From a virus: a stretch of DNA of 39,622 nucleotides. The stretch is taken from the IMG/VR virus record IMGVR_UViG_3300005613_000173, positions 1 to 39,622 of that record; one strand, 5' to 3'. Under the pieces are notes generated by a model. It saw only the letters and a list, made by a program, of their open reading frames with translations, made no database searches and was not told where the DNA came from. Position numbers and translations under genes: made by a program. The stretch's first letter is position 1. Each line of letters starts with the position of its first letter. This document shows, one piece after another, positions 5,076 through 35,710 of the stretch.

Positions 5076-5094
5076 CCTAATCTTCTCCTCAATT

Positions 5095-5601
5095 TTATTC
5101 ATAAGATATTTTCTCGTACCAATACGTAGCCACCGCAAGGGCTGACCACATATGCGTTTTCATTTTACCCTCTTTCGTCCCGTCCTCTCCATAATTCAGA
5201 TTGGGGGCTTTTTTTACGCCCGGCTTGCCATAAATGTCAATCAACGCCTGACGGACATTCCCCTTTTTCGCTTGAGTTGTACCGCACAAAAAAGACCTTA
5301 TATCTCGTGGATATGCCCTGTGAAATACGCCATCCCCCTTCCCGAACCATGCTTCACAGAATCGCCCAACCCAGTAAATTGTCTCGAAAACATCTTTTCC
5401 GACCGGCATCCCACGGGCTTCCGGCATTTCGATAACTAACTCTGTCTCAGTATTAAAACCCGAATCCGCAAAAGTATAAATGAACCCTAAAAACTCCTCG
5501 TTACTCATATCTACAGCTTTATGTTTAACTGTGCGTTCGGGTGTCAGCAATACATACGCAGAGTGCGTAGTTCCGGGGTCTACACCTAATATGTTTTTCA
5601 T
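5095..5601 (-). CDS. RuvC-like Holliday-junction resolvase (RNase H fold)
   Basis: 168 residues. The start is the RuvC-type ILGVDPGTTHSAYV strand with D8. Strand 4 supplies VIEMPEARG with E58, and a helix contains NVRQALIDIYG. The C-terminal helix is THMWSALAVATYW, where other members usually have acidic residues (D-x-x-D/H-A). Here H150 and S153 stand at or near those places, so the third and fourth metal ligands are not obvious. The conserved PEARGMPVG and FETIYWVGRF segments place it in a phage-specific subgroup. It probably cleaves branched replication or recombination intermediates before packaging. Its stop overlaps the alternative start of the next gene. Confidence 0.75.
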   Translation of the reverse strand: MKNILGVDPGTTHSAYVLLTPERTVKHKAVDMSNEEFLGFIYTFADSGFNTETELVIEMPEARGMPVGKDVFETIYWVGRFCEAWFGKGDGVFHRAYPRDIRSFLCGTTQAKKGNVRQALIDIYGKPGVKKAPNLNYGEDGTKEGKMKTHMWSALAVATYWYEKISYE

Positions 5602-9611: not shown

Positions 9612-9842
9612 TTAAAATTTCGGTTTTAGTTTCAGTTTCTTCGCCGGTTCTGCTTGCGCTGGTTCTGCTTGCACATCTTCAGCTTCTTTAGGTGGCTGCT
9701 CGCCATAGCCATCAGCTTCTAATCTTGCATCCAGCGCGTTTCGTATGTACACGCTCATGTTTTCGCCTGTTTTCTTCATGGCTTTATACATTCGTTTTTC
9801 CTGATCCTCGTAAATGTAAACTGTTTTAAATATCAGACTCAT
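9612..9842 (-). CDS. Ribbon-helix-helix (CopG-like) DNA-binding protein
   Basis: 76 residues. A short N-terminal strand (FKTVYIYED) is followed by two helices (QEKRMYKAMKKTG and SVYIRNALDARLEADG), the RHH layout. The C-terminal 30 residues are a Pro/Glu/Ala linker ending in a Lys tail (KKLKLKPKF). Its ATG overlaps the preceding stop by one base (TAATG). As a small dimeric DNA binder it is a candidate repressor of phage promoters, possibly at the palindrome at 17479, but nothing in the sequence proves the target. Confidence 0.6.
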   Translation of the reverse strand: MSLIFKTVYIYEDQEKRMYKAMKKTGENMSVYIRNALDARLEADGYGEQPPKEAEDVQAEPAQAEPAKKLKLKPKF

Positions 9843-11395
9843 TATTTTTCACCTCCTTTCGCATACGCAAATCGGGGCGCATATGCAAACTCGGTTAGAG
9901 TATCGAGCCCCACACACTCCCAGTTCTCAGGCATAAACGTCATAAAGGTCTGCACATTATCAGGAGACCATGTTTGACCGTTCACGCCAACAAAGACAAA
10001 CGCCGGTAGATTGTTCCTGACCCCATTTTTAAGCCACTTAGCCCATATCTGATAATCAGAGACATCAATGGGCGGAGTTGGGAGCATGGTTTTCAGCGTG
10101 AGAAGTCCATTAACCTTTTTCGTTGCCAACTCGTACTCAAACGTTGGCATTGTCTCAAGTAACATGTTGCACTTGAGACTATTACGAATACGGGTAACAG
10201 TCTCATCTGTAGCCCACCAAATCCAAATATGTTTCATATCCGTTTTGTTCATGTGTTGCCTTGTAATCTCCAGATATTGACTCTGATATTTGTAGGCGTC
10301 AAGGTCAGTGTATCCCATGCCGTTACAAGCGCAGACATGGTAATCGTTAGGAGTGGATACCCCATAGTAATGGTACAAGACAGATGGGCACATGTCTATC
10401 ATTATAGGAATCCAATCCCATGCAATCGGTATTGACCGCGGTTTTTCCCAGTGCCTAATACGAGTGTACATATTCGCTGCTATATTACTACCCTCACTGA
10501 ATACCCACGCCACATATACCTTATCTTTCTCAGGGTATAACCGCTGCCATTTCTTCTGCTTCGGCAACTTAACTTTAAAGCCGCTATGCACGGATAAATT
10601 AGGTGAAGTGTGAGCTACAACAAGATAGTGACCATGCTCTGCTAAGTACCGGATTAAACCCCTCTCGTTATCAAAATCATCGCCGGGATGTATTAACCCA
10701 TCCCATTCGCGAGTGCCGCCAAATTTCCCGTATGGGTACCCGCATCTCTCCATTCCCCACACACCCAACACAGGGCAATTTCTGTCGGCATCATCAAGCA
10801 CGCGGTCAAACACACGCCTATCCTCATCTGTGCTAAAAAAGGTAAAGATTTTGTTAGCCGTTAGATAGTCCCACAATTCAGTGTAAGCGCGGGGATGATA
10901 ATGAGCCAACACTGTTTTACTACACTTAGGCCACAGGTGTTTATATGCCCATTTATAGCCGCGCTGAAGATTCCATTTATGCTTAACCGGTATCCGCAAG
11001 ACTTTATTTAACTCTGTGGATACCGGAATTAAATTTTCAATAGCGCACCACATATATAATATGTTTGCGTTTTTCCACTTTTTCGGGTCATAATACCAGC
11101 CGCCCGGATATTCTATAGCTCCCTGATAATCGGCCTTAAACCTTTTGAAGACTTGGCCCAAATCGGACATAGGCTCGAACTCTATGCCGTGTTCGGCTGT
11201 TAGTATATTAGGCCAAGGATCATTACCCGTGCAAGTATTTTCATACTTATCGTGATATACATACAGGCGTGGTTCCCGCCTGTTCACGAGTCCCTGTAAC
11301 ACAGATAGCGCTATTCGTTCGGGATATAATCCCGTTTTCTCTGTGAATAACACCATCTTTTTGGCTGGCTGTGGCTGTTTTGGAATTGCGCTCAT
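9842..11395 (-). CDS. GxGYxYP-type putative glycoside hydrolase
   Basis: 517 residues. The N-terminal part (ERIALSVLQGLVNRREPRLYV, split here around residue 40) matches the N-terminal module of the GxGYxYP family. That family's proteins carry a short 'LQG..NR..PRLYV' element followed by an acidic Trp-rich region. A CNGMGYTDLD segment (about 368) resembles the GxGY signature in a diverged form, with TD in place of YP. The centre is rich in Trp, Tyr and Asp, as expected of a sugar-binding beta/alpha barrel. There is no signal peptide, so the phage product would act inside the cell. Function in the family is itself predicted. Finding it in an early phage operon, coupled to an RHH gene, is unusual. 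SD GAGGG, four bases from the start. Confidence 0.55.
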   Translation of the reverse strand: MSAIPKQPQPAKKMVLFTEKTGLYPERIALSVLQGLVNRREPRLYVYHDKYENTCTGNDPWPNILTAEHGIEFEPMSDLGQVFKRFKADYQGAIEYPGGWYYDPKKWKNANILYMWCAIENLIPVSTELNKVLRIPVKHKWNLQRGYKWAYKHLWPKCSKTVLAHYHPRAYTELWDYLTANKIFTFFSTDEDRRVFDRVLDDADRNCPVLGVWGMERCGYPYGKFGGTREWDGLIHPGDDFDNERGLIRYLAEHGHYLVVAHTSPNLSVHSGFKVKLPKQKKWQRLYPEKDKVYVAWVFSEGSNIAANMYTRIRHWEKPRSIPIAWDWIPIMIDMCPSVLYHYYGVSTPNDYHVCACNGMGYTDLDAYKYQSQYLEITRQHMNKTDMKHIWIWWATDETVTRIRNSLKCNMLLETMPTFEYELATKKVNGLLTLKTMLPTPPIDVSDYQIWAKWLKNGVRNNLPAFVFVGVNGQTWSPDNVQTFMTFMPENWECVGLDTLTEFAYAPRFAYAKGGEK

Positions 11396-20811: not shown

Positions 20812-22338
20812 ATGCCGAATTTGGCTGAAGTTATAGATACATCTACCCCACTGGGTTTTGAAACGGCACGCTCTTTTATATCTTTATACGATGAGAAACA
20901 GCTTAATCTTAAATATGAAGATGACCCTCTCCTTTTTATTCGGGATAGATTGGGAATAAAAAAGAGGTCAAAGCATCCTTTGTTAAAAAACTGCCGAACC
21001 GGTTTATGGTGGAAGCAGGAAGAAATAATAGAGACTTTGTGGCAAAAGCGTAAAGTTGTGGTTAAATCGGGGAATGGCCCTGGTAAATCTTTTGTTGCGG
21101 CCATTGCTGCTTTGACTTTTTTGAATACTAAAACACCATCTATTGTAGCTACTACGGCGCCGACTGAACGTCAGGTAGAAGACATCTTATGGCGGGAAAT
21201 TCGCGACCTTCACATGAGGGCAGGATTGCCCGGCACTTTAAAAAAGGCGTCATTGGAGATATCTGAAAGACATTTCGCTATTGGTTTAACGTCGAATCAA
21301 GCCGATAAATTTAATGGCTTTCACCAGAAGAACATATTAATAATTTTAGATGAGGCCAGTGGGATAGCGGAGGATATTTGGGAAGCTTGTAGAGGTTTTA
21401 TGACTTCCGCTAATGCTTATATATTGGCGATCGGCAATCCCCTATCTCCTCAAGGACATTTTTACAATTTATTTCAGGGCGGAAAAAATTGGGCTACTAT
21501 TACAATTAACTGTGAAGAATCACCGAATGTTGTAGCAGAAGAAATAATTATACCGGAGATTGTTACTCTGAATTTCGTAGAGGAAATGAAAGAGGAGTAT
21601 GGTGAAACCTCACCATTATATCAGTCTCGTGTTAAAGGTGAGTTCCCTGAAGAAGGGGAGAATCAATTAATCCCGCTGTCTTGGGTAGAGCGTTCAATGG
21701 CTAACGATAGCACAGAAGATGGCCGTTCTTCTCTTTTCTGGGATGTTGCCAGAGGTGGAGGAAACTATACCGTTTTTGCTATGATGCAAGGTAGTAAACT
21801 AAAATTTATGCGATATTTTAATAATAGGGAACCAATGCAAATTGCAGGACAGGCTGTGAAGATGATAAAAAAGGAAGAACCCGATGTTTATGGCGGTGAT
21901 GATACGGGTTTGAGCGGAGGCGTAAACAGTAGATTAAGGGAACAGGGGTTTGCGCCGGTCTCCGTAAACTTTCAGGCAACGCCTTCTTTAGAGGTATACA
22001 AGAAGAAGTTTGTAAACTTGAGGGCTTGGATGTACTGGAAATTGAGAGAGGACATGGAAGATAATAAAATCTCCCTGCTGGACGATGACGGACTTAGGAT
22101 TGGACTTGTGAAATTGAAATATGAATTTCGTTCCGAAAGCAAAATAAAAATAATAGATAAGGAGAAAATTAAATCTGATTTGCCTCCAAAGCATAAAAAC
22201 GCGATGGATTTTACGGATGCTGTTGTTATGGCAAATTGGGGACGTGAGTTTGGGGCAATTCATAATAGAGAGAAAAATAAACAATATTTCAAAAAGTATT
22301 GCAACCGTTTTAAGAAAAGAAACTCTCTATATAATTAA
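20812..22338 (+). CDS. terL: Terminase large subunit
   Basis: 508 residues, SD GAAAGG. ATPase: Walker A SGNGPGKS (86-93), Walker B ILIILDEAS with D180-E181, and a motif III-like LAIGNP. Nuclease (RNase H-like): FWDVARGGGNYT with D311, YGGDDTGLSGG with D363/D364, and AMDFTDAVV with D466/D469. The enzyme pumps DNA into the procapsid and cuts the concatemer. Its length and lack of an extended N-terminal domain fit headful or cos packaging equally; end type cannot be told from the sequence alone. Confidence 0.92.
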   Translation: MPNLAEVIDTSTPLGFETARSFISLYDEKQLNLKYEDDPLLFIRDRLGIKKRSKHPLLKNCRTGLWWKQEEIIETLWQKRKVVVKSGNGPGKSFVAAIAALTFLNTKTPSIVATTAPTERQVEDILWREIRDLHMRAGLPGTLKKASLEISERHFAIGLTSNQADKFNGFHQKNILIILDEASGIAEDIWEACRGFMTSANAYILAIGNPLSPQGHFYNLFQGGKNWATITINCEESPNVVAEEIIIPEIVTLNFVEEMKEEYGETSPLYQSRVKGEFPEEGENQLIPLSWVERSMANDSTEDGRSSLFWDVARGGGNYTVFAMMQGSKLKFMRYFNNREPMQIAGQAVKMIKKEEPDVYGGDDTGLSGGVNSRLREQGFAPVSVNFQATPSLEVYKKKFVNLRAWMYWKLREDMEDNKISLLDDDGLRIGLVKLKYEFRSESKIKIIDKEKIKSDLPPKHKNAMDFTDAVVMANWGREFGAIHNREKNKQYFKKYCNRFKKRNSLYN

Positions 22339-22349
22339 AGGAGGAACTA

Positions 22350-22976
22350 ATGAAAGATGACACGTTGTTCTATGGATATTGCCATTGGGAAGGTATTATT
22401 GCCGGTGGAACAAACTACTACACAAACGATAGTAATTATCCGACTACGGTAGAATTCTTATCGGGGATAACTAATCACTTTGCTATTCCTGATATGTTGT
22501 CCAATTCCGTGGCGGAAGATAATATAACACAGGTGATAGAACCTATTCCTACCGGTAATTTCTATCGGCGTGGAGTTGTTTTGCCGAATGCTATTGATAT
22601 TCATCACAGTTTCCCATATAGAGTGTTAGCCGATAACATTGATACGGAAGCTGAAGCATTGTTAAAAGAGAGGCAATTTAATAGCGAAGCCAACATTCTC
22701 GTAGTGCCTGATACTTTGAATGATGGGAAATATATGGTTGTCACTAAGTATCAATGGCGTAATGCGCGTGGCTTCTTTATCAGGAATGCATCGACTGATC
22801 AGACGTTGTTGTTTAAGATTAATGATAGACGGGCTTGCGAGCGGTCTTTGTTGCCCGGTTATAGTTGGGCTTTAAATGAGACTGATAGACTCTGGGTTCA
22901 ACGATTGTACTTGAAAACTTCGGGCTATGGTGGCTCAGAAGATGCGGATTGTAGTGTTGTTATATGGGCTACATAA
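22350..22976 (+). CDS. Unknown, probably virion-associated protein
   Basis: 208 residues, strong SD AAAGGAGG. Beta-rich and aromatic (LFYGYCHWEG, NYYTNDSNYP, FFIRNASTDQTLLF), ending VQRLYLKTSG..VVIWAT. The ending resembles small head-decoration or adaptor domains whose last strands read 'WV-x-LYL..V..W'. It lies directly after the terminase and before the sugar-modifying genes. No family recognised. Structural role inferred from the late-operon position. Confidence 0.6.
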   Translation: MKDDTLFYGYCHWEGIIAGGTNYYTNDSNYPTTVEFLSGITNHFAIPDMLSNSVAEDNITQVIEPIPTGNFYRRGVVLPNAIDIHHSFPYRVLADNIDTEAEALLKERQFNSEANILVVPDTLNDGKYMVVTKYQWRNARGFFIRNASTDQTLLFKINDRRACERSLLPGYSWALNETDRLWVQRLYLKTSGYGGSEDADCSVVIWAT

Positions 22977-23004
22977 GGGAGATTCAATCAAGGGGGGAAA
23001 CATC

Positions 23005-23544
23005 TTGGGTTTATTTAAGGGAATTCCGGCTATTTTGGAGGGTATGGATACAAAGTTGGATGATATTCAGCAAGATTTCGCTGAAGAAGGAACAAAAGAT
23101 TATAAAACTATGAATTTAGATGGGAGTGGCGCTTACGATTTGTTCCAAGTTCAAGAAGATGTTGTTGTACTATATTTATGGGGGCATGTGACCGAAGCTA
23201 TTCCCAATAACACAACTGCTGTTAGTTTGCAATTGTTTCCCGTCGGAGGGCCTCCTGTTCAATTGACAAATGTTGCAGGCGAAAATATTAGCAATTTTGC
23301 TGTTTATTCTATGTTAATAAAAGACCAACCTGCAATGGCTAATATCCACGCGCTTAATTCTTCTACAGGTTGGGTCGCGGACGCTGCTGGTTTGTCATTC
23401 TTGCCTTTCGCGGTAGGACAAAAATTTGGCGTAGATACTTTCATAAGATTTGTAGCAACTGAATTAGGTGCTTCCGTCGCCATTCATTGGCATATAAAAT
23501 GGAAAACAATGACAGAAGACGGCGGCCTTATTACGCCAGTGTAG
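23005..23544 (+). CDS. Unknown, probably virion-associated beta protein
   Basis: 179 residues from TTG 23005, which has AGGGGGG seven bases upstream; earlier in-frame starts lie inside the previous gene. N-terminal amphipathic helix (GLFKGIPAILEGMDTKLDDI), then a beta-sandwich-like C-terminal part (VVVLYLWGHVTEAIPNN, FVATELGASVAIHWHIKW). The helix-plus-sandwich layout recurs in the next gene, so the two may be paralogous virion spikes or decorations. No family recognised. Confidence 0.6.
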   Translation: MGLFKGIPAILEGMDTKLDDIQQDFAEEGTKDYKTMNLDGSGAYDLFQVQEDVVVLYLWGHVTEAIPNNTTAVSLQLFPVGGPPVQLTNVAGENISNFAVYSMLIKDQPAMANIHALNSSTGWVADAAGLSFLPFAVGQKFGVDTFIRFVATELGASVAIHWHIKWKTMTEDGGLITPV

Positions 23545-23601
23545 AGTTTTGTCTTTGCAATATGAGAATAAACCAGATGAGTAAAAATGGGGAGGCTAAT
23601 T

Positions 23602-24165
23602 ATGCCAACAGAAGGAACAACAATAAACACCGATGAAATAATAACTGCTGTAAATCAGGTTGATACTGCCGTTCAGATTGTACAGGCGCAAAATGTAGGT
23701 ACGCAAATGGAGATGTATAATATGAGCGCCAACATAATCTCTGAGGTGCAAAATGCAACCGTTCGGATACTAGACCAAACAAAGGTTGATTACGAACATG
23801 AAGACTATGTAGCCGGTGTAAATTTGTTTGCGGGATATTCTTACCCGCAAAACATCGGGCTTTTGCCCGGACTTACCGGAGATGTTATGATTGAACTGCA
23901 CGTTGACGGCTTGGACGGAACAGGCGGTAATTTTGAAGTTAGGCTTTCCAAGTTTAGCACATATACCGGTTATGCATCTGAAATATCGGCCGTTTCCACT
24001 ATTCCGGTAAGGGCTGGACTTACAAAGACATGGTTCTTGAGCGATTTAATGTCGTTTGAGAGTGATGACCATTTAAATGTGTATATTAAATCTCCCAATG
24101 CTGCCGACACAAGCATAGATTTGATTGTGAAGATGTCGGTTAGAAATCAGTTGAATCCATTATAA
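23602..24165 (+). CDS. Unknown, probably virion-associated beta protein
   Basis: 187 residues from ATG 23602 (SD GGGGAGG); an ATG five codons earlier overlaps that SD. N-terminal helix (DEIITAVNQVDTAVQIVQAQ), then a Ser/Thr/Asn-rich beta domain (GDVMIELHVDGLDGTGG, FEVRLSKFSTYTGYAS, STIPVRAGLTKTWFLSDL). It is Ser/Thr-rich enough to be an acceptor for the sugar-transfer genes that follow. That is speculation from adjacency. No family recognised. Confidence 0.6.
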   Translation: MPTEGTTINTDEIITAVNQVDTAVQIVQAQNVGTQMEMYNMSANIISEVQNATVRILDQTKVDYEHEDYVAGVNLFAGYSYPQNIGLLPGLTGDVMIELHVDGLDGTGGNFEVRLSKFSTYTGYASEISAVSTIPVRAGLTKTWFLSDLMSFESDDHLNVYIKSPNAADTSIDLIVKMSVRNQLNPL

Positions 24166-24199: not shown

Positions 24200-26464
24200 A
24201 TGGCAAAAATTTTAGCGATAAATAAAGAGACAAAGAGAATATGTGACATAATGGGATTCCCTGTTCCAAAAATTGATAATATCTTTGTGGACTTAGTTAA
24301 AAGTAGATTTAAGGATAAAATCGGAGTTGAGCTTTTAACTAATCTGAAAGATATTAACGCATGGAGTAAAGGTCTTATTTTGTGGCGGGGTTCTTTTGGA
24401 TCAGAATGGAGTCTTGGAACTTTTAGTGCGCAGAATGTCATAGCTCTTGGCGCCTACGGTTTCCCTGTTTATACTGATGGCAAGTTTAACGGAAACACCA
24501 CGGATGCTGTTAAAAAATATAAGGGAAATGGCAAGATAAGGTCTATAAGAAAGAATATGTTTATGCTACAGGAGGCTCGTTCTCAGCCGTATACTCCACA
24601 GCATGACGGCAAATACGGGCTGTTTTATATGTGCGAAGGCACTCAAATAAATAGTTCCGTGGTTAATGTTTTGAATGACGCTGATATTACCTATACGCCT
24701 TCTCATTTCTGCCGGAAGGTATTAATGAATTGCGGAGTTAATAATGTAAACCTGTGGTCGCATGGGATAAATCCTGAAACTTATCCATTTAAAAAGAGAG
24801 ACAGAAGCAAGAAGTTTTTCACATTCTTGATCGTCGGTTCGAGTACACCGAGAAAATACACGAAAAGAATGGTTTCAGCTTTTGTTGATGCTAACGTTCC
24901 TAATACAAAGTTAATAGTGAAAAGTGTGAAGAACGAAGGATTCAACCGAGAAATTAGAGATGCTTATCCTCAATCAAATATTGAATATCAACATGGGTTT
25001 TTAAGTGATAGTCAGTTATTGAAATTATATCAACGCGGAGATTGCATACTAGAAGTTAGTCGTGGCGAAGGGTTTGGAATGCCCCCCTTGGAAGCTATGG
25101 CGACTGGAGCTGTCCCTGTGGTTACTAATTATAGCGGTATGGTTGATTTTGTTACGCCTGACGACGGTTATTTTATACCCGTTGACCGAATGGTAAGCGT
25201 TCATGGTAATGATATTATGGACGAGGGATTATGTGCCGAACCTTCTTATTCCGCATTAGTTGATAGGATTAGATACATAGGAAAAAACAGAGACGAGGCT
25301 TGGGATTACGGCGAAGCATCCGCTAAGAGGGTGCATCGAGATTGGACGTGGATAGAAAAGACACGAGAGATATTTCCGTCATTAAATAAATTGGTACCAT
25401 TTGATTTGTTAGAAACGGGGTTAAAGTTTCATCACAAAGGCAGTCCTCGGGTAACTTTTCTCTCAAGCAATTTTTATCCTGAAGTTATAGGGGGTGGGGA
25501 GATTTCCAATATGAATCTTGCGAAGTCTCTATCGGAAAGAGGCTATTGGGTTGATGCAATATATTACAAAGCAAACTACGAGATAATGACGCAACGCAAT
25601 AATGTTTGGATATGGGGGATAAAAACCGAGCGCAGATGTCGAACGAGAAATTTATGGTGTGATTATCTGGATCGAGTAAAACCGAACTTGGTTTTTAATA
25701 ACTCAATAGAGAACGAGTTTGGCGTTGTTTTGTTAAGGGAAGCAAGGAATAGAGGAATTAAAATTATAGATTTAGAACATTCCGATGTGAACTTGCGGGG
25801 GGTTGGTAAGCGCATAATGGAGATGTCGGATAGAGTCTTTGCTAATTCGATTGCGTTACAGCATGGTATAAGAGAAAGGCATCGCATTGAAGTTGATATT
25901 TGCCGTCCGCTAATTGATTTCTCGAAGACAACCGTTAAGCAAAACACCCGAGAATATATTACCTGCCTTCACCCATCAAAACAGCGTAATCTGAAGGAGA
26001 TGAAGCAATTAGCCCAACGCAACAAGAACGAGAAGTTCCTTTTTGTCGATGTAGATAACACGTCGAAACCTGAAGATTTTGCTGATATTCCTAACATTAC
26101 TTGGTGGCCGTTTCAGAACGATGTTAGAAATGTGTATTCCGTTACAAAAGTCTTATTGTATCCAGCTATAAATAAAACATACAACATCGGTATGGCAACA
26201 GTAGAGGCGTTAATGAATAATATCCCCGTGATCTTCTCGGGGTGCGCCGCTGAAGCTCAGAGCTTATCTGATGCCATCTACTACATAGAGGACGAAAACG
26301 ATGTAGACGAGTGGAGTTGCTCATTGCGGTCGGTTATAGATTCTTATGATGAATGTATTAAAAGATGTGGTTTTGTCGGGGAGCAATACAAAATGGAGCA
26401 TTCCGTTAATTTGATTGATGCGGCAATAAAGGGAGAGTTGAGTGATAATATCACACAAGCATAA
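24200..26464 (+). CDS. Two-module GT4/GT-B glycosyltransferase
   Basis: 754 residues. The N-terminal module (1 to about 405) has the GT4 nucleotide-sugar motif SRGEGFGMPPLEAMATGAVP (about 284-303), the E-x7-E element, after TFLIVGSSTPRKYTKR. A second module begins near 415 with VTFLSSNFYPEVIGGGEI, an N-terminal GT-B strand-loop with the glycine-rich turn. It ends with NIGMATVEALMNNIPVIFS, a weaker version of the same C-terminal motif. So two GT-B folds are fused, as in some O-antigen and S-layer glycan enzymes. It opens the sugar-modification island. Its C-terminus (LSDNITQA) overlaps the start of the first sulfotransferase by 23 bases. Confidence 0.8.
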   Translation: MAKILAINKETKRICDIMGFPVPKIDNIFVDLVKSRFKDKIGVELLTNLKDINAWSKGLILWRGSFGSEWSLGTFSAQNVIALGAYGFPVYTDGKFNGNTTDAVKKYKGNGKIRSIRKNMFMLQEARSQPYTPQHDGKYGLFYMCEGTQINSSVVNVLNDADITYTPSHFCRKVLMNCGVNNVNLWSHGINPETYPFKKRDRSKKFFTFLIVGSSTPRKYTKRMVSAFVDANVPNTKLIVKSVKNEGFNREIRDAYPQSNIEYQHGFLSDSQLLKLYQRGDCILEVSRGEGFGMPPLEAMATGAVPVVTNYSGMVDFVTPDDGYFIPVDRMVSVHGNDIMDEGLCAEPSYSALVDRIRYIGKNRDEAWDYGEASAKRVHRDWTWIEKTREIFPSLNKLVPFDLLETGLKFHHKGSPRVTFLSSNFYPEVIGGGEISNMNLAKSLSERGYWVDAIYYKANYEIMTQRNNVWIWGIKTERRCRTRNLWCDYLDRVKPNLVFNNSIENEFGVVLLREARNRGIKIIDLEHSDVNLRGVGKRIMEMSDRVFANSIALQHGIRERHRIEVDICRPLIDFSKTTVKQNTREYITCLHPSKQRNLKEMKQLAQRNKNEKFLFVDVDNTSKPEDFADIPNITWWPFQNDVRNVYSVTKVLLYPAINKTYNIGMATVEALMNNIPVIFSGCAAEAQSLSDAIYYIEDENDVDEWSCSLRSVIDSYDECIKRCGFVGEQYKMEHSVNLIDAAIKGELSDNITQA

Positions 26465-27095
26465 ATTTATTTATATAAAAGCAAGAAAGGTTGCGTCTAC
26501 ATCGGTGGGTTGTCTTCTAACTCAACATTGCGGCGAAAACGATATTCTTGGCCAAGATTGCGGCTCAGCTACAATTATGCCAGTCCATGCTGAAGTAGAG
26601 CGTGTGAAATTAGTGGCAGGTATAAAGGCGTGGCGTGAGTATTTCAAGTTTTCTATAGTCAGAAATCCGTGGGATGTAGTCGTCTCTGAGTTTTGGCATC
26701 GGAAATGGACATCTAAAATTAGTGAAAAAATGATGCCCCCTTCGGAGATGTTTTTGCCTTTTGATGATTTGGTTAAATGGATAATTAAAGCAAGACCCCT
26801 TGGAATGAATTATAAATATTATTTCGATTCAAAAGGACGCCCTGCTCTAGATTATTATATTCGATATGAAAACTTAGATATCGGCTATCAAAAAGTGTGC
26901 GAAAGAATTGGGATTCCGTTTGAGAAATTGCCTCGGTTAAGAGGGCATACGAGAAAAGATAAAAGGCATTATTCTACGTATTATAACGATAGAACGCGAA
27001 AAGCAATAGGTCAAGTTCACAAGAAAATGATTAATTTTTTCGGGTACGAATTTAAAAAACAAGAGGCTCTGAATGATAATATCACACAAATATAA
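26442..27095 (+). CDS. Sulfotransferase family 2-like enzyme (copy 1)
   Basis: 217 residues from GTG 26442 (GGGAGAG upstream). The PAPS 5'-phosphosulfate loop is KARKVASTS (13-21), matching K-x-x-S-T-S. The 3'-phosphate site is FSIVRNPWDVVVSEF with R74 and S82. The rest follows bacterial Sulfotransfer_2 proteins that sulfate sugars. A cytoplasmic enzyme using PAPS from the host; no PAPS-synthesis gene is in the window. Its 3' end (LNDNITQI) overlaps the second copy by the same 23-base junction by which its own start overlaps the GT. Confidence 0.8.
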   Translation: MIISHKHKFIYIKARKVASTSVGCLLTQHCGENDILGQDCGSATIMPVHAEVERVKLVAGIKAWREYFKFSIVRNPWDVVVSEFWHRKWTSKISEKMMPPSEMFLPFDDLVKWIIKARPLGMNYKYYFDSKGRPALDYYIRYENLDIGYQKVCERIGIPFEKLPRLRGHTRKDKRHYSTYYNDRTRKAIGQVHKKMINFFGYEFKKQEALNDNITQI

Positions 27096-27714
27096 GTTTA
27101 TTTTTGTTAAGGCTCAGAAAGTGGGCGGCACGTCGATCGAGGATGCTCTGTCTAAGCATTGCGATAAAAATGACGTTATAGCTCGCCGCAAGAAGACAGC
27201 TACAACGCTTGGCTATCATGCATCAGCGATGGAGATAAAGCGGAAAGTTGGATATCCGATCTGGAATAGATATTTTAAGTTCTCTATAGTTCGGAATCCG
27301 TGGGACGTTCTTGTTTCCGAATTTTGGTTTCGGAAATGGAGAAACGAGAACAATAAAAGGAAGCTTTCTAAGCGTGACTGGTTTTTACCTTTTAATGAAT
27401 TAGTAAAGCGTCTTTCAGAGAATGCGCGAGGCGGAATGAATTATAGGTATTACTTCAATCCTGCCGGCGACCCTCTTTTGGATTTCTATATTAAGTACGA
27501 AAATTTAGAACCCGACTATAAAAAAGTATGCGGGCGCATTGGAATTCCTTTTGAGCTTCCGCCGCGGCGTAATGCTTTTCAGAGATTAAATAATAGGCAC
27601 TACTCAACATATTATGACGCTGAATATCGCAACATTGTAGCTGAAAACCATAAAAGAATAATCGAATTCTTTGGATATGAATTCGAGGATAAAGGAGGGC
27701 GACTTGAAGATTGA
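27073..27714 (+). CDS. Sulfotransferase family 2-like enzyme (copy 2)
   Basis: 213 residues from ATG 27073. Phosphosulfate loop KAQKVGGTS (13-21), a K-x-G-G-T-S variant; 3'-phosphate site SIVRNPWDVLVSEF with R74 and S82 at the same positions as copy 1. Identity with copy 1 is clear at both ends and around the active site, and weaker in the middle (residues 30-60), where acceptor specificity would lie. This points to an old tandem duplication with divergence to a second acceptor. Confidence 0.8.
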   Translation: MIISHKYKFIFVKAQKVGGTSIEDALSKHCDKNDVIARRKKTATTLGYHASAMEIKRKVGYPIWNRYFKFSIVRNPWDVLVSEFWFRKWRNENNKRKLSKRDWFLPFNELVKRLSENARGGMNYRYYFNPAGDPLLDFYIKYENLEPDYKKVCGRIGIPFELPPRRNAFQRLNNRHYSTYYDAEYRNIVAENHKRIIEFFGYEFEDKGGRLED

Positions 27715-28288
27715 CCGCATAAAAATTGCAATGAAGATAGAGGGGAAAATAAATAGAAATGAGTGTTCGTTGCTTTACGATTTGGCCTCGAAGGTTCAAT
27801 GTGCAGCTATCGTTGAGATTGGGAATTATAGGGGGAGGTCTACGGTAGCGTTAGCGATGGGGTCTCTTGATGGGTCGAACGCACCAGTATATACGATAGA
27901 CCCTCATCGGGGCGCAGCGGGTCCGCGGACACCCAACCGCATGCATTCGTGGAGAGACAGAGAAGTTTTTCTCAGGAATCTATGTAAAACCGGATCGTGT
28001 AGGGTTGTGAAACCTATAGACCTAATGTCTGAGGAGGTTGCTCGTGGATGGAAAGAAAAAATAGAACTCTTCTGGGTGGATGGCCGACATGATTACGAAC
28101 ATGTTAAAATGGATTTTAAAGCCTTCTCGCCTTTCGTAATTAATGGTGGCCTTATAGTTTTACACGACTCGTTTAATACTCGGTTTGAAGGTCCCGCGCG
28201 AGTTGTGCAAGAGGCGCTTAATACCAGACGGTTTGAAAAGGTGAACGAAGTGGGATGCTCCACCGTGTTAAGGAAAAACAAAGAATGA
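27704..28288 (+). CDS. Class I SAM-dependent methyltransferase (Methyltransf_24-like)
   Basis: 194 residues from TTG 27704, which has AAAGGAGGG just upstream inside the end of the sulfotransferase gene; an earlier ATG at 27671 has no SD. AdoMet motif I IVEIGNYRGRSTVALA, motif II YTIDPHRG, motif IV LFWVDGRHDYEHV, and LIVLHDSF. The VDGRHDYE and HD residues fit metal-dependent O-methyltransferases of glycan clusters (TylF/CmcI-like). Probable role: O-methylation of a sugar in the glycan built by the island. Confidence 0.75.
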   Translation: MKIDRIKIAMKIEGKINRNECSLLYDLASKVQCAAIVEIGNYRGRSTVALAMGSLDGSNAPVYTIDPHRGAAGPRTPNRMHSWRDREVFLRNLCKTGSCRVVKPIDLMSEEVARGWKEKIELFWVDGRHDYEHVKMDFKAFSPFVINGGLIVLHDSFNTRFEGPARVVQEALNTRRFEKVNEVGCSTVLRKNKE

Positions 28289-28980
28289 AATGTAGTTTGA
28301 TATTGTGTTGCTATAACAGAAAAAATATAGTTAGCAGCGCTATTCAATCTGTTATTGACCAAGATTGCCGTGATTTTGAGTTAGTATTTATTGATGATGG
28401 CAGCGAAGAAAATCTTTATTCTCTATGGAGAGAGATGGAGAACAAAATGGATTTTTCTCATACATACATCAGAATAAAAAATGATGGAACATGCTCAGTA
28501 TCAAAAGCTGCTAATGCTGGTTTGAGAATAGCAAGAGGTAAGTATATTGCTTATTTAGCTTCCGATGATATTTTGACAAGCAATTCCATATCTTGCAGAG
28601 TTTCTTTTTTAGATGCTCATCCGGATATTTATGTAGTAGCAGCCAAACGCCATGTAAGAGGAGAGAATTTGAGGGATTGGGAAAAGTATGATGGGAATTG
28701 GACTAAAAGATTTGGAACGGATAAACTGTCGATAGATGAAGCAAAGCGTCAGCAAATTAAAAAGAATATAATAGGGTGTGGTACGGCAATGTGGCGAAGG
28801 GAGTGTACATCTATTATAGGTTTTTTTAATGAGAATAGAAAACATGCGGAAGAATGTGATTATTGGAATAGAATGGTTGAAAATAATTTGCCAGTACAGT
28901 TTTTGAATGAATATGTGTATATTATAAGGAAACACTCAGGAAGTAAATCAAGGGGGAAAAGAAATGCAAAAAAATATTAA
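28285..28980 (+). CDS. Family 2 (GT-A) glycosyltransferase
   Basis: 231 residues from ATG 28285, which overlaps the methyltransferase stop as ATGA. GT2 motifs: SLILCCYNRKNIVSSAIQSV, FELVFIDDGS, NAGLRIARGKYIAYLASDD (the D-x-D-type SDD), and a late W/E-rich acceptor region (HAEECDYWNRM). It lacks membrane segments, so it acts in the cytoplasm on a nucleotide sugar and a soluble or lipid-linked acceptor. AT-rich codon use compared with the first half of the island. Confidence 0.8.
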   Translation: MKCSLILCCYNRKNIVSSAIQSVIDQDCRDFELVFIDDGSEENLYSLWREMENKMDFSHTYIRIKNDGTCSVSKAANAGLRIARGKYIAYLASDDILTSNSISCRVSFLDAHPDIYVVAAKRHVRGENLRDWEKYDGNWTKRFGTDKLSIDEAKRQQIKKNIIGCGTAMWRRECTSIIGFFNENRKHAEECDYWNRMVENNLPVQFLNEYVYIIRKHSGSKSRGKRNAKKY

Positions 28981-29704
28981 TAATCTGTATGATGGAATAG
29001 GTGATGAAATCGTCACTAAACCAGCGTATAATGGTGGAGAGTATCAGGCACATTGTTCTGCGGTTATTGAAAAGGGAGCTAAAATTGGTAAGGGTACAAA
29101 AATATGGCATTTTTCACACATTATGAAAGGGGCAGTAATTGGCTGTGATTGTAGGCTTGGGCAAAATATTAATATTGCAAGCAGGGCACTTCTTGGTAAT
29201 AACGTTAGTTTACAGTTCAGTATTTCTGTGGGTGATGATACCACTATAGAGGATGATGTTTTTTGTGCCCCTCATGTATGTTTAACTAATGTAATTAATC
29301 CTCGTGCTTTTATTAATAGAAAGAATGAATATCAACCTACTTTAATTAAGAAGGGGGCAACATTAGGAATAAACTCAACAGTCCTTTGCGGGAATACTGT
29401 AGGGAAGTATGCGTTTATTGGGGCTGCGGCAGTAGTAACAAAAGATGTTTCTAATTATGCCCTTGTGCTGGGTGTGCCCGGAAAAGTAAGAGGCTATATA
29501 TGTAAATGTGGCATTAAGTTAGAATTTGGAATGACACAAATGGAAGAAAGGGGAAACTTATATGAAGTTGCGCTTTGTAAGGAATGCGGGGACAAATACA
29601 TTAAGTGTGGAAATATAGTCAATTCTCTTTCGCAAGGTGAATGGCACAGTTTAGAGGGAACATTTATGGAAAACTCACACACAAGAATAGGAGATGAAAT
29701 ATGA
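28964..29704 (+). CDS. WbpD/WlbB-like sugar N-acetyltransferase (left-handed beta-helix)
   Basis: 246 residues, SD GGGGGA. Hexapeptide repeats from AVIEKGAKIGKGTKIWHF through GATLGINSTVLCGNTVGKYAF, with the family-typical GTKIWHFSHI, FCAPHVCLTNV, INPRAFINRK, YALVLGVPGKVRGYICKCG. WbpD-type enzymes acetylate UDP-2-acetamido-3-amino-glucuronate in bacterial surface-glycan pathways. A C-terminal cysteine pair set (CKCG, CKECG, KCGN) may bind zinc. Its likely product is a rare acetamido sugar for the glycosyltransferases of the island, unless the host supplies the substrate. Confidence 0.8.
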   Translation: MQKNINNLYDGIGDEIVTKPAYNGGEYQAHCSAVIEKGAKIGKGTKIWHFSHIMKGAVIGCDCRLGQNINIASRALLGNNVSLQFSISVGDDTTIEDDVFCAPHVCLTNVINPRAFINRKNEYQPTLIKKGATLGINSTVLCGNTVGKYAFIGAAAVVTKDVSNYALVLGVPGKVRGYICKCGIKLEFGMTQMEERGNLYEVALCKECGDKYIKCGNIVNSLSQGEWHSLEGTFMENSHTRIGDEI

Positions 29705-30120
29705 AATATGCAATGTTCATAGGCCGATGGCAACCATTTCATAATGGACATAAATATATTATCGACCAAGCTCTAAACGCTGGGAAAAATGTGGTTGTAG
29801 CTCTAAGAGATACTTCTATTAACGATAAAAATCCGTACTCTATATTGGAAAGAAAAATGATGATCAGGAAGGTTTATCCAGATGGCGATAGAGTTAAGAT
29901 TATTGTTATACCTGACATAGAAAGCGTTAATATAGGCCGCAAGGTTGGCTATGACGTGAATAGGTATGATGCGCCGGAAAATATAGAGGGAATATCGGCG
30001 ACGGAGATACGGGACTTAATGAGCAAAGGGAATCATAAGTGGAAAGAGTTTGTTCCGGGTGCTATGCACTTATTATTGAAAAATTTAGAAGATGTAAGGG
30101 GGAATAAAAATGCCATATAA
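29701..30120 (+). CDS. Nucleotidyltransferase (HxGH superfamily)
   Basis: 139 residues, ATG overlapping the previous stop (ATGA). GRWQPFHNGHKY (8-19) is the HxGH nucleotide-binding motif and ISATEIR (98-104) the ISxTxxR motif. The closest pattern is NadM-type NMN adenylyltransferase, though the protein is shorter than usual (about 170). Either NAD synthesis or activation of a sugar or alcohol phosphate is possible; its place at the end of the glycan island favours the latter, the motif favours the former. Confidence 0.75.
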   Translation: MKYAMFIGRWQPFHNGHKYIIDQALNAGKNVVVALRDTSINDKNPYSILERKMMIRKVYPDGDRVKIIVIPDIESVNIGRKVGYDVNRYDAPENIEGISATEIRDLMSKGNHKWKEFVPGAMHLLLKNLEDVRGNKNAI

Positions 30121-30280: not shown

Positions 30281-32053
30281 ATGGATTATAATGTATATAC
30301 TCAAGATGAAAGATTAAATCTTGGCCTCTCCAGATTCAGACGTAGCAAGAATTTTTGTGAGCCGTATTTTGATAGAGCCAAGACTCACTATAAAATGTTT
30401 AGGTCGTACAGAAATAAAGCACAGCATCCGTGGCAGCATAATGTCTTTCTGCCAAAGGTGTTTGAGCACGCATCGACCAAAATAGCAAGAATGATACAGA
30501 CTTTATTTGCGGTTGATGATTTGTTTGCGTTTTTGATGAATGAGCGAATGGATGAATATGTCGCGAGAATCTGTGAGCGGGTGGCAAACCAACAAATAGG
30601 TCATCCTAAAGCAGAAGCACTATCAGAATTAGAAGCGTCTTTTCAACAATCGTGTGTCTTTGGCTTGGGATATTTAGGGCTATATCCTCAATTTGATTCA
30701 AGTATGAACTATAAATATCCCCGATGTGATGCCCCTGACTTTTTTAGTATATATCCTGACCCGAATTGCAAGCGATTGTCGAGAGCGGGATGGCTCGTTC
30801 ATAGAACTGAAATAGACCATAAAGAGCTAATAAATAAAATGGATCAGGGTATATACAAACGAGTAAATGTTGAAGAGATTAAAAAACTACCTCAAGTGGT
30901 AGACGATAATGAACATAAAAATGCGATGCAGGCAATTGGATTGACAACAGATTCGGGCGTCTGGACTGACCCTTCTGACCCAAAGTCAACTTTGGTTGAA
31001 CTCCTTGATATTTATGAGGATGGGCATATTATGACCATAGCAGGCCGTTCTTTAATTATAAGAGATACTTCCAGAGACATTGGGTCTGCGCCCTTCCCAT
31101 ACAAAATTCCTGTTTTGGATAACCGATTATGGACTGTAGCTGGAGAATATTTCGGAATAGGTTTACCGGAAGCTATGCAAGATGTTCAGGAAAACATAAA
31201 TGAAATAATGAACATTTTCCTCGATAACGCACAGTTTGTTATCAACAGAGGTTATATTGCCAATGATACTGCTAATATTAATTTGGATACATTCTTTAGC
31301 GCACCGGGTATAATTAATACTGTTACAGACATTAACGGGATTAAAGCGATGGATGCAACATCTCAAGGGATGGAATTAGCGCCATTAATAATGGATAGAC
31401 TAACGTCTGAAGCTGAGGAAATCACCGGTGAAACGAGGTATGCTCGGGGTTCTACGCCGGAACGTCGAGAAACGGCTACTGCTATAGTTAGGTTACAACA
31501 AATGGCGTTAAGTTTATCGGATTTACAAATGAAGAATGTGGAGTATAACGTTCTTCGCAAATTGGGAAAATGGACGATTCAATTGGTGCGAGAGTATACA
31601 GATGTTGATTGGATGGTTCGTTTCATTAATCCAAATCCAGAAGACCCAAAAGTAATGGAGGCCATAGAACAACTGTACGGTATGACGCAAGAGGAAATAG
31701 ATGATGAAGTGGACTTTAAGGCGGTAGGTGCCGCAGTTACCAGCACAAAAGAACTTCGAGCTGAACGTTCACATCAAATAGCAACTACTCTTCTTGAGTT
31801 GCCTCCTGAATTAACGCAAAATAATGTCACACCATATGTAATAGATACGGAAGCGGTAATTAGAATGTGGTTAAATGCATTGGAGACAAGGGAAGTAGAT
31901 AATATTATACGTCTCCTGCCTAAACAAAGAGAAGGTGGTTTGCCGGCAGGGCAAATGACGGGCGGAGCGCCGCCGATGGAAGCAATGGCTGAAGCGGCCG
32001 GCGCCGGCGGTATGATGCCGCTGGGTGCTGGACTGGAAGGGGGATTAATGTGA
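30281..32053 (+). CDS. Portal protein
   Basis: 590 residues, SD AGGCGG. Podovirus-type portal features: an early YFDRAKTHYKMFRSYRNK helix, QHPWQHNVFLPKVF, DFFSIYPDPNC, and the long-helix region LPEAMQDVQENINEIMNIF followed by SEAEEITGETRYARGS. Gly/Ala-rich C-terminal tail (AAGAGGMMPLGAGL). As a dodecamer it is the DNA entry/exit vertex and docks the terminase. Position after the terminase block and before scaffold and capsid confirms the order of a head module. Confidence 0.85.
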   Translation: MDYNVYTQDERLNLGLSRFRRSKNFCEPYFDRAKTHYKMFRSYRNKAQHPWQHNVFLPKVFEHASTKIARMIQTLFAVDDLFAFLMNERMDEYVARICERVANQQIGHPKAEALSELEASFQQSCVFGLGYLGLYPQFDSSMNYKYPRCDAPDFFSIYPDPNCKRLSRAGWLVHRTEIDHKELINKMDQGIYKRVNVEEIKKLPQVVDDNEHKNAMQAIGLTTDSGVWTDPSDPKSTLVELLDIYEDGHIMTIAGRSLIIRDTSRDIGSAPFPYKIPVLDNRLWTVAGEYFGIGLPEAMQDVQENINEIMNIFLDNAQFVINRGYIANDTANINLDTFFSAPGIINTVTDINGIKAMDATSQGMELAPLIMDRLTSEAEEITGETRYARGSTPERRETATAIVRLQQMALSLSDLQMKNVEYNVLRKLGKWTIQLVREYTDVDWMVRFINPNPEDPKVMEAIEQLYGMTQEEIDDEVDFKAVGAAVTSTKELRAERSHQIATTLLELPPELTQNNVTPYVIDTEAVIRMWLNALETREVDNIIRLLPKQREGGLPAGQMTGGAPPMEAMAEAAGAGGMMPLGAGLEGGLM

Positions 32054-33293: not shown

Positions 33294-34481
33294 ATGATAC
33301 GAGGACAGAGAGATACCGCGAATACGTTAGCAGATCGTATAGTGGTAGAAATGGAAGATAAAATCTGGCGTTTAGAAGGTGCTGCCGATGTAGCACCTTT
33401 AACCGTTCTAACAATGGGAAACATTGGAAAGAAGAAACAGCAGGTTTATGATGATGAATATCACTGGCTGGAACAGTTACCGATGCCGAGAACTGACGCT
33501 ATAAACAATGTGGCAGGGTATGGCGCTGGCGCTGTTAATTTAGTCGTTGATAATTCCAACATTTTCAATGGTTCAGCCGTAGAGGGTGGTCAGGTAATCC
33601 GCTTCGCGAGAACCAGCGAACAGGCATTAGTAACGGGTACAAATGATGTAACCAATACCATTACTGTAATTCGCGGCTATGGACAAACTGCCGCAGCGCC
33701 GTTAGTGGATAATGATGTTATCCAAGTGTTGGGAACTGCATATAAAGAGGGTTTTAATGCCCCTGAATCTGTAGTTATGCAGCCTGATAAGGTTAGTAAT
33801 TTCGTCCAGCGTTTCAGTGAAACCGTAACAGGAACGGCTACAGCCGACAGTTTAAAGGCGTATGGAGGTAAAATCCGGCCTGAAGACCGTGCTGAAAAAG
33901 GACGCGAATATTTAAAACAGATGGAACGCAATTTCCTATTAGCGGAGCCTTATCAAGATAATACCAATTTTAATCATCCCAACAATATTACCGGTGGTTT
34001 GAATTATTTCGTTCAGACTAATAGATTTAATTCAGCCGGAGCACTAACCGCGGATTTGTGGGAACAGTATCTGTTAATGGCTTTTCGATATGGCGCTAAA
34101 AGGAAACTTTTTGTAACATCTGATTTGGTGGGTAGCCAAATTAATAAGTTTGGGCGACAAGCTTTGCAGGTTGTACCCAAAGAAAAGAGTTTTGGTGTTG
34201 CTATCAATACGTATTACATGGGGCCTTATATCGTAGATGTTGTCATTGATAAAATTTTGTCCGATGATGCCTATTTGTCCGGTATGGGATTCATGGTACA
34301 ATTAGACCATCTCGATATGGTTTACATGAAAAGCGATGACGGTAAAGCTGGTGATACTCGGTTGAGAATCGGAATAGAACCGGAGGCTTCACATGGATAT
34401 ATAGATGAGTGGTGTGGCGATCTTGGTTTTAGAATTAGACTCGAATTGCTACACTCCCTCATTTATAACGTAACAGCGTAA
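33294..34481 (+). CDS. Major capsid protein (SU10/DUF5309-type HK97 fold)
   Basis: 395 residues, strong SD GGGGGAG. N-terminal arm (LADRIVVEMEDKIWRLE), YHWLEQLPMPRTDAINN, a long extended loop with ITVIRGYG, FVQRFSETVTGTATADSL, and a P-domain helix region (AEKGREYLKQMERNFLL). C-terminal beta strands include YYMGPYIVDVVIDKIL and LDMVYMKS. These match the SU10 major-capsid family, which also has RGYG and VSNFVQRFSETV-type segments. No cleavage site or delta domain is obvious; a separate scaffold precedes it. Flanked by hairpins on both sides. Confidence 0.8.
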   Translation: MIRGQRDTANTLADRIVVEMEDKIWRLEGAADVAPLTVLTMGNIGKKKQQVYDDEYHWLEQLPMPRTDAINNVAGYGAGAVNLVVDNSNIFNGSAVEGGQVIRFARTSEQALVTGTNDVTNTITVIRGYGQTAAAPLVDNDVIQVLGTAYKEGFNAPESVVMQPDKVSNFVQRFSETVTGTATADSLKAYGGKIRPEDRAEKGREYLKQMERNFLLAEPYQDNTNFNHPNNITGGLNYFVQTNRFNSAGALTADLWEQYLLMAFRYGAKRKLFVTSDLVGSQINKFGRQALQVVPKEKSFGVAINTYYMGPYIVDVVIDKILSDDAYLSGMGFMVQLDHLDMVYMKSDDGKAGDTRLRIGIEPEASHGYIDEWCGDLGFRIRLELLHSLIYNVTA

Positions 34482-34545: not shown

Positions 34546-35052
34546 ATGGCAATTAGAAATTATGAGTCTTATGCCGGTAATCAGACATATGTGGTGGAGA
34601 GGCCAAAAACCACAAAGCATATTGTGAATGGGGATATCGTAGAGGAAACATTTGCAGGAGTTCTCATTCAATTTAAGCGTTGTCGATTATCATTGGATGA
34701 CAGTAAGCCGATTGACAGAAAGAAAATAGAGTTCCTTGATAATAATGTATCTGGAGAGCTAAACATGCCGAAAGGTTATTGGGATATAACTGGCATGATT
34801 GGACGCACACAGACCAATATTCAAACAACGAGAGGTGGAGTGGATAGCAAGAGCAGGAAAGGTGCTATTGGTTCCCCACCTCTGCTTAGCAAAGCACGTC
34901 CACAACCACGATGTAAAGGGAAAAACAAGGATGGGTCTCAATGTGGCCGCTTGGCTGCTAAAGGTAGTGACCTATGTGGCCCTTGTCAAAAAAAGGAGTC
35001 CGCGAATGCAATTTCAGGAGATAGTGACGCAAGTAGCGACATTGCTGAATAG
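34546..35052 (+). CDS. Unknown head protein with C-terminal zinc knuckle
   Basis: 168 residues, SD AAAGGAGG. Residues 1-100 are beta-rich (ETFAGVLIQFKRCRLSL, WDITGMIGR). After a basic linker comes RCKGKNKDGSQCGRLAAKG, then CGPC: a C-x8-C-x11-C-x2-C zinc site like that of DUF5763-type knuckles, ending in an acidic Ser-rich tail. It lies between capsid and adaptor. The zinc site could bind RNA or DNA or simply be structural. The gene overlaps the adaptor by 47 bases. Confidence 0.6.
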   Translation: MAIRNYESYAGNQTYVVERPKTTKHIVNGDIVEETFAGVLIQFKRCRLSLDDSKPIDRKKIEFLDNNVSGELNMPKGYWDITGMIGRTQTNIQTTRGGVDSKSRKGAIGSPPLLSKARPQPRCKGKNKDGSQCGRLAAKGSDLCGPCQKKESANAISGDSDASSDIAE

Positions 35053-35710
35053 GGATGACATAGAGGATGAAATACCATCATGGATAAACATGGTCAGACT
35101 TGAAATGTCTCAATTAGACCCTTTGCCTGAAGATTTTGTGCGTGCAACTATGAACACTACGTCAACGAACTATCAAACGATATCGGGTGAACATATCTAT
35201 TCGTATCCATGTGATTATCTATGGCATTACAATTTAACAATAAGAAAGCCTGATAATGATGAGTATGCGCTGACCAAACTTGATGGTAGACGTTTCGATA
35301 ATTTAAAGAACAGTGGCTTCGCGGATTCTCAATTAACGGCTACGGGACAAGGCGCACCAACTTATTATGTTGAGCGTGGGCTTGGCTTTAGGCTTGTTCC
35401 TGATGCTAATAGCGAGGACTATACCTTGGTTTTACAGTATTATTCCACACCTGTTGAAGTCAGCGGGCCTGCGGAACCGTCTCAGTTTGTAAGATTCTAT
35501 AATGCTATTATTATGGGTGCTTGTAAATTTGGAGCATTAGCGCTTAAAGACGCAGAATTGTTGCAACTGTACAACGCAGAATTCGGCGCAGTTTTAAGAC
35601 GCTTAGTGCGTATTACCCGTCACAATAGACACGCAAACAAGATGTCCAGAGTGAAAACTTTGTATGATATGCCGCTTGCGGGTGCGCAACGGTTTATGAA
35701 TGTAACGTGA
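35006..35710 (+). CDS. Head-tail adaptor (SU10 adaptor-like)
   Basis: 234 residues from ATG 35006, with AAGGAG upstream; a longer frame lies antisense-like inside the preceding gene and is not used. N-terminal helices (QEIVTQVATLLNRDDIEDEI, PSWINMVRLEMSQL) followed by a beta region (YLWHYNLTIRKP, LVLQYYSTPVEV) and a terminal helix bundle (FYNAIIMGACKFGALALKD). The pattern resembles phage adaptor proteins found with SU10-type capsids, which ring the portal and dock the tail. Confidence 0.7.
   Translation: MQFQEIVTQVATLLNRDDIEDEIPSWINMVRLEMSQLDPLPEDFVRATMNTTSTNYQTISGEHIYSYPCDYLWHYNLTIRKPDNDEYALTKLDGRRFDNLKNSGFADSQLTATGQGAPTYYVERGLGFRLVPDANSEDYTLVLQYYSTPVEVSGPAEPSQFVRFYNAIIMGACKFGALALKDAELLQLYNAEFGAVLRRLVRITRHNRHANKMSRVKTLYDMPLAGAQRFMNVT

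Follow-up and report, generated by a model that had tools for sequence, protein, structure and literature searches.

Virion glycosylation has been described in mycobacteriophages, in which phage glycosyltransferases act on capsid and tail proteins (cited in PMC12619734, as excerpted). APS kinase genes are also found in phage genomes, and excerpts of two reports (PMC10914622, PMC9529941) present cysC and cysH there as genes of "assimilatory sulfate reduction". Searches of the open-access literature retrieved no study of the function of phage sulfotransferases and none of an NMNAT-like ATP sulfurylase. Here, we analyzed a 39,622-nucleotide stretch of viral DNA (IMG/VR record IMGVR_UViG_3300005613_000173; hereafter, the window) that carries glycosyltransferase and sulfotransferase genes together with a gene for a small nucleotidyltransferase, NT.

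ORF calls placed seven overlapping genes on the plus strand at 24200-30120, between the terminase and portal genes (Table 1), and all six gene-gene junctions overlapped, by 4 to 44 bases. Families were assigned by Pfam matches above the curated cut-offs, with PHROGs in agreement; judged from these scores, the assignments are not chance matches. The initial annotation had described a same-strand, head-to-tail run of a two-module GT4 enzyme, tandem sulfotransferases, a methyltransferase, a GT2 enzyme, an acetyltransferase and an HxGH nucleotidyltransferase between terminase and portal, and it was borne out in positions, flanks and families. Profile searches of each enzyme, which could have exposed false motif matches, upheld the assignments instead.

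Table 1. Genes of the island and its flanks in the window.
Feature	Coordinates	Strand	Supporting match
Terminase large subunit, left flank	20812..22338	+	phrog_2 1e-42
Three ORFs just upstream of the island	22350-22976, 22927-23544, 23587-24165	+	no known family
GT4x2 glycosyltransferase, two modules	24200..26464	+	PF00534 3e-22, 79 bits, two stretches; phrog_2170 5e-35
Sulfotransferase 1 (ST1), GTG start	26442..27095	+	PF03567 31.2 bits (cut-off 22); phrog_3347 2e-17
Sulfotransferase 2 (ST2), tandem duplicate of ST1	27073..27714	+	PF03567 33.3 bits (cut-off 22); phrog_3347 2e-15
SAM-dependent methyltransferase, Methyltransf_24/CmcI type, TTG start	27671..28288	+	PF13578 3e-19; PF04989 above cut-off
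GT2 glycosyltransferase	28255..28980	+	PF00535 8e-21, 75 bits
WlbB/WbpD-type left-handed beta-helix N-acetyltransferase	28964..29704	+	Hexapep PF00132 8.5e-14; PDB 3mqg 3.4e-54
NT, HxGH nucleotidyltransferase, 139 aa	29701..30120	+	PF01467 5e-9; model pLDDT 92
Portal protein, SU10 type, right flank	30281..32053	+	PF23899 2e-16

In Caulobacter phage Kuura, 0.4 kb separates terminase from portal, whereas here the interval measures 7.9 kb and is filled with the island genes; this comparison of gene order is with distant phages, because terminase and virion-protein queries from the window recovered no relative of its own lineage among viral contigs. The three ORFs preceding the island (22350-24165) had no match in Pfam or PHROGs, and two of them had no tblastn match among 50,697 phage records. 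They are possibly virion proteins and, as such, candidate acceptors of the modification.

Among the sugar enzymes, translation of the GT4 gene showed an intact EX7E motif in module 1 (EGFGMPPLE) and replacement of its first Glu in module 2 (YNIGMATVE). The acetyltransferase resembled the WlbB/WbpD UDP-sugar N-acetyltransferases, its match to the LPS biosynthesis acetyltransferase 3mqg extending across residues 29-216. It differs from these enzymes in an extra Cys-rich C-terminal tail (CxC...CxxC) and in that the preceding pathway enzymes were not recognized in the window. Translations, Pfam and PHROGs revealed no companion enzymes for an amino-uronic precursor among the island ORFs, acetylation being the only step of the acetamido-uronate pathway present. 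Neither a flippase, a polymerase nor a lipid-carrier initiating enzyme was recognizable in the island; therefore, the host would have to supply the precursors.

ST1 and ST2 matched PF03567 with E-values of 3e-7 and 7e-8, respectively, and both matched phrog_3347, annotated as "Galactose-3-O-sulfotransferase". Both retained the PAPS-site motifs, namely the 5' loop, which contains a Lys and ends in TS, and FSIVRNPWDxxxS; the loops were intact, as the initial annotation had stated. K16 of the 5' phosphosulfate loop and R74 and S82 of the 3' phosphate site were conserved in sulfotransferase alignments, and R74, P76 and S82 were invariant in the alignment of 32 sequences. The ST2 model (pLDDT 90) had a sulfotransferase fold, and its top PDB matches were PAP-bound sulfotransferases (E 2e-4, TM about 0.5); a PDB search with the single ST1 sequence gave only a chance match, and structural matches came through profile and fold searches. 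ST1 and ST2 are predicted to be PAPS-dependent sulfotransferases. They were 50% identical, and the start junction TGAxTGATAATATCACACAA was duplicated along with the gene, a sequence pattern indicating that the pair is one duplicated gene. The ST-ST-methyltransferase order was repeated in loci L018/L019, whose island also contains an APS kinase gene and a relative of NT. Of the phage records, 47 had sulfotransferase relatives, as did 27 IMG/VR contigs, and a few contigs had at least five copies; thus, such enzymes are not especially rare in phages, and the earlier statement that they are was too strong.

NMN adenylyltransferases were the best sequence and fold matches of NT. The scores of NT, however, were below both NMNAT cut-offs (55.1 vs 181.2 bits for TIGR01527 and 62.4 vs 127 bits for PRK01153), and the NMNAT substrate region was shorter in NT by about 30 residues, with five residues in place of residues 78-107 of MJ0541. 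NT was also rejected as a member of the Sat family, its score against ATP sulfurylase PF01747 being 17.4 bits (cut-off 24.3) over 50 of 212 positions. Phage NadM proteins (Stenotrophomonas phage Moby, Vibrio phage nt-1) have the GRxQPFHxGH and ISxTxIR motifs and the fold in common with NT, but NT lacks their Nudix domain as well as the substrate-region residues.

We compared the surroundings of viral NT genes with those of 84 loci of genuine phage NMN adenylyltransferases (NadM). An APS kinase gene was within 2 kb of NT or fused to it at 75 of 80 viral NT loci, as opposed to none of the 84 NadM loci. A sulfotransferase gene was within 5 kb at 27 of the 80 NT loci, about two thirds having no recognized sulfotransferase in that range, and at none of the NadM loci. 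Conversely, NAMPT was a neighbor at 71 of 84 NadM loci and at no NT locus. Among 25 non-redundant long records, an APS kinase was within 2 kb of NT in 23 and a sulfotransferase within 5 kb in 13, compared with 1.8 expected under random placement, a test that takes no account of the general tendency of phage metabolic genes to cluster and is weaker than the NadM control. Following this control, NMNAT and cytidylyltransferase identities for NT were rejected. The best matches of NT would agree with a conventional phage NMN adenylyltransferase that serves NAD supply and sits at the end of the island incidentally, but this reading is quite improbable given the score far under the equivalog cut-off, the absent substrate-region residues, a neighborhood that is the reverse of that of phage NadM, and fusions with APS kinase in both orders.

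In these fusions (NT-APSK and APSK-NT), the APS kinase domains were full. In the tree, the window's NT fell within a supported clade consisting mostly of NT/APS-kinase fusions, and its closest cellular relative was a fusion followed by a downstream sulfotransferase gene (L130). Two observations fit this linkage less well: phage DLP_6 has its kinase-NT fusion close to replication genes, with no sugar island visible around it, and an APS kinase was looked for in the window and not found. Among 40 NT-bearing cellular genomes, 39 had APS kinase, three had Sat and five had CysD; 31 had APS kinase with neither Sat nor CysD, many of these genomes being incomplete assemblies. In Dadabacteria, NT was accompanied by APS kinase and by a reductase of CysH type, and Sat and CysD were absent.

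The kinase partners bear on a further reading, in which NT and its partner make another activated donor, such as a nucleotide-linked phosphoramidate, rather than PAPS. In Campylobacter capsule synthesis, a CysC homologue phosphorylates a nucleotide other than APS, which provides a precedent, and some of the NT partner kinases were short and diverged, their matches being confined to the initial portion of the APS kinase profile. Other partners, however, were full APS kinases (1e-54 to 1e-69), the recurring neighbors of NT were sulfotransferases, and the Dadabacteria combination without Sat and CysD also argues against such a donor, which we regard as unlikely.

Because of the linkage and fusion to APS kinase, the NadM control, the missing Sat and CysD, and the tree, we favor NT as a compact sulfate adenylyltransferase, although its sequence and fold, taken by themselves, point to NMN adenylyltransferases. 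The best explanation of the island, and one that is reasonably probable, is that it produces a glycan modification that is sulfated and probably also methylated and N-acetylated, with NT feeding the sulfation. The reading of a sulfation-plus-glycosylation island in the late operon thus stood, but the HxGH enzyme (model pLDDT 92) more likely serves sulfate activation than nucleotide-sugar synthesis. The genes present, their folds, the position of the island as an insertion among conserved head genes and the strong linkage of NT to APS kinase and sulfotransferases are observed, whereas the reaction of NT and the order of the steps are inferred; the acceptor may be either a protein of the virion or a glycan of the host surface. 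Sugars from the nucleotide-sugar pools of the host would be attached by the GT4 and GT2 enzymes, and an amino-uronic sugar made by the host would be acetylated by the WlbB-type enzyme. Different positions may be capped by the methyltransferase and by the two sulfotransferases, which have diverged from each other. NT would convert ATP and sulfate to APS and PPi, supplying the sulfation step; APS would be converted to PAPS by an APS kinase, presumably the host CysC, and the PAPS would be used by ST1 and ST2.

The location of the glycan can also be read differently. That the glycan is placed late in infection on the envelope of the host, where it would mask receptors or exclude superinfecting phages, rather than on the virion, is a real but less than even possibility: O-antigen and capsule are made by the same enzyme families, and a related sulfotransferase of cyanophage ACG-2014f sits in a nucleotide-sugar/glycosyltransferase cluster, but no flippase, polymerase, acyltransferase-type serotype-conversion or lysogeny gene was recognized here, and the island lies among head-assembly genes beside the three putative virion-protein ORFs. 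Modification of the phage DNA, as base hypermodification with sulfated sugars, is unlikely, its probability being very slight. Phage glycosyltransferases are able to glycosylate DNA, and phage nucleotide glycosylation and sulfation systems are cited in an excerpt of PMC10829341; against this, base-hydroxylating or modified-nucleotide synthesis enzymes were not recognized in the window, the island is among late assembly genes, and its acetyltransferase and methyltransferase are of sugar type.

More broadly, the NT family is on balance likely to represent a new ATP sulfurylase class alongside Sat and CysDN, present in phages and in bacteria (among them Dadabacteria, Marinimicrobia and marine Bacteroidetes), and phage NT, APS kinase and sulfotransferases would together form a virus-encoded sulfation pathway. 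Phage cysC genes would therefore often serve sulfation, not assimilatory sulfate reduction. If NT makes APS, a sulfate-activating enzyme is now annotated as an NMN adenylyltransferase or cytidylyltransferase; a pathway gap would be closed in several bacterial lineages, a gene family common in phages would be given a function, and many phage "sulfur auxiliary genes" would be recast as sulfation machinery. Many phages would then sulfate virion or host glycans, a surface chemistry that is seldom looked for.

Several known systems resemble this arrangement in part. As in PAPS synthases, which are ATP sulfurylase-APS kinase fusions, NT occurs fused to APS kinase, in both orders, or as its partner gene, near sulfotransferases; in contrast to them, the partner domain is not PF01747 but an NMNAT-like domain of about 120-140 aa, and the window's NT stands alone. 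Synechococcus phage ACG-2014f carries the same sulfotransferase family amid glycosyltransferase, methyltransferase and nucleotide-sugar genes. Its sulfotransferase, however, is single-copy and 24-25% identical to those of the window, and its cluster is near photosynthesis and tail fiber genes, has many precursor-synthesis genes and is not a terminase-portal insertion. The excerpted phage cysC/cysH reports (PMC10914622, PMC9529941) do not tie these genes to NT or sulfotransferases, whereas here genes for APS kinase, NT and sulfotransferase make up a linked set. The excerpted account of mycobacteriophage virion glycosylation (PMC12619734) reports no sulfation.

The seven overlapping same-strand genes that the initial annotation had described between terminase and portal were recovered by ORF calls and profile matches (see table). 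Because a major capsid protein and an SU10 adaptor lie downstream of the portal, the region is the late operon. The window (39,622 bases) is a virus record from IMG/VR, and reading frames extend past both of its ends.

Features of the window
Feature	Position	Strand	Remarks
Two adjoining related proteins	3425-4147, 4149-5138	-	Long alanine-rich repeats (ARDAA-like); similar to phrog_38757
GxGYxYP putative glycoside hydrolase	9842-11395	-	PF14323, 3e-21; within the early genes
Terminase large subunit	20812-22338	+	Left flank
Three ORFs, no known family	22350-24165	+	Terminase side of island
Seven-gene overlapping island	24200-30120	+	After the three ORFs of no known family
Portal, SU10-type	30281-32053	+	Right flank
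Major capsid protein	33294-34481		After portal; phrog_1328
SU10 adaptor	34799-35710		After portal

Every enzyme family assigned in the initial annotation scored over a curated cut-off or passed an equivalent test. The two sulfotransferases, ST1 and ST2, are a tandem duplication: they were 50% identical in protein and 63% in DNA, and the junction at the start codon was itself repeated. Alignments bore out their description as tandem PAPS-type enzymes, the PAPS-binding motifs being kept in both, and the predicted structure of ST2 (pLDDT 90) matched PAP-bound sulfotransferases. The acetyltransferase matched an LPS biosynthesis acetyltransferase (PDB 3mqg, WlbB; 3.4e-54). The GT4 protein consisted of two modules, with both EX7E Glu residues present in the first only. 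An APS kinase was looked for in the window and not found; PAPS formation must therefore rely on host CysC or on a gene beyond the contig.

Relatives of ST1/ST2 were found in 27 IMG/VR contigs and 47 phage records, the latter including 45 from Synechococcus phages, and many records with such relatives also held glycosyltransferases. Contigs of 222, 52 and 62 kb had 10, 8 and 6 phrog_3347 matches, respectively, a few matches being split pieces of one gene. Diverged sulfotransferase arrays among glycosyltransferase-like genes were seen at loci L030 (G008, the 52-kb phage contig, at least 8 matches), L031-L032 (G004, 222 kb) and L033 (G007). The order ST-ST-methyltransferase recurred in two closely similar contigs (L018 and L019), as part of a longer sugar island with capsid genes on one side and tape-measure genes on the other. 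Since a homologue of NT, the HxGH nucleotidyltransferase ending the window's island, is present there alongside a full APS kinase, NT was surveyed more widely.

NT relatives were very common in viral contigs (at least 566 confirmed, of which the best 80 were retained). A CysC-like kinase gene lay within 3 kb of NT in 74 of 86 NT loci, window counted. Among 41 long NT records, PF01583 (counted as APS kinase) was present in 39, within 2 kb of NT in 38 of these; a sulfotransferase (PF13469 or phrog_3347) was present in 29, within 5 kb in 26, compared with 4.1 expected by random placement. With near-duplicates removed, the APS kinase was within 2 kb in 23 of 25 records, and the sulfotransferase within 5 kb in 13 of the 15 records holding one (1.8 expected). 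NT/APS-kinase fusions occur in either domain order, several with a full APS kinase domain. Phage DLP_6 has an APS-kinase-like/NT fusion (L046, 5593-6324), and a Clavibacter phage 33 product annotated 'kinase' matches NT (L047, 5587-6324); no annotated sulfotransferase or sugar gene was found within about 6 kb of either. Phage C72C1, whose terminase is distantly related to that of the window, has an annotated phosphoadenosine phosphosulfate reductase gene (L193, 8418-9092).

In database searches NT falls next to NMN adenylyltransferases. It lacks about 30 residues of their substrate region. The genuine NadM-type enzyme of Stenotrophomonas phage Moby adjoins NAMPT, and a control scan anchored on it (84 loci) was compared by the same procedure with 80 NT loci. 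NAMPT was within 5 kb at 71/84 NadM loci and 0/80 NT loci, whereas APS kinase was within 2 kb at 0/84 and 75/80, and a sulfotransferase within 5 kb at 0/84 and 27/80, respectively. A maximum-likelihood tree placed the window NT in a supported clade composed in the majority of NT/APS-kinase fusions; its nearest relative by tree path was a fusion on an Omnitrophota contig, followed by a sulfotransferase gene.

NT was also found on 60 bacterial and archaeal contigs. Among 40 genomes checked from this set, 39 had APS kinase, 3 Sat and 5 CysD, and 31 combined APS kinase and NT without either ATP sulfurylase. Most of the Dadabacteria-type genomes searched had APS kinase and a single CysH-size PAPS-reductase-family protein, yet none of the known ATP sulfurylases was found in them. 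In one Dadabacteria genome (G104, present as one contig under the label 'chromosome 1'), APS kinase and NT were present, Sat and CysD were not found, and a CysH-type reductase adjoined a permease that looks PiT-like by sequence (L194, 4690-6426). In marine Bacteroidetes, APS kinase, NT, metK and ahcY were near one another; the row APS kinase, (TagD-like), NT, metK, ahcY was observed at L165 (6975-11023) and L149 (7391-10993), and it pairs sulfate activation with methyl activation.

The simplest reading of this genomic context is that NT forms APS. No description of NT as a sulfate-activating enzyme was found in the open-access literature. One paper calls it unclear what phage sulfotransferases do (PMC10580990), and two papers interpret phage cysC as assimilatory sulfate reduction (PMC10914622, PMC9529941). 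NT would be the sulfate activator for the island, and sugars drawn from host pools would be acetylated, methylated and sulfated. Once NT is taken in this role, the island has a coherent logic. Its late gene position slightly favours the virion over the host envelope as the glycan site. Caulobacter phage Kuura has the same terminase-portal-scaffold-capsid layout as the window, and in it a gap of 0.4 kb, occupied by a single small gene, separates terminase from portal. In the window this gap measures 7.9 kb, so the island, together with the three ORFs without a known family, appears to be inserted in a conserved order of head genes.
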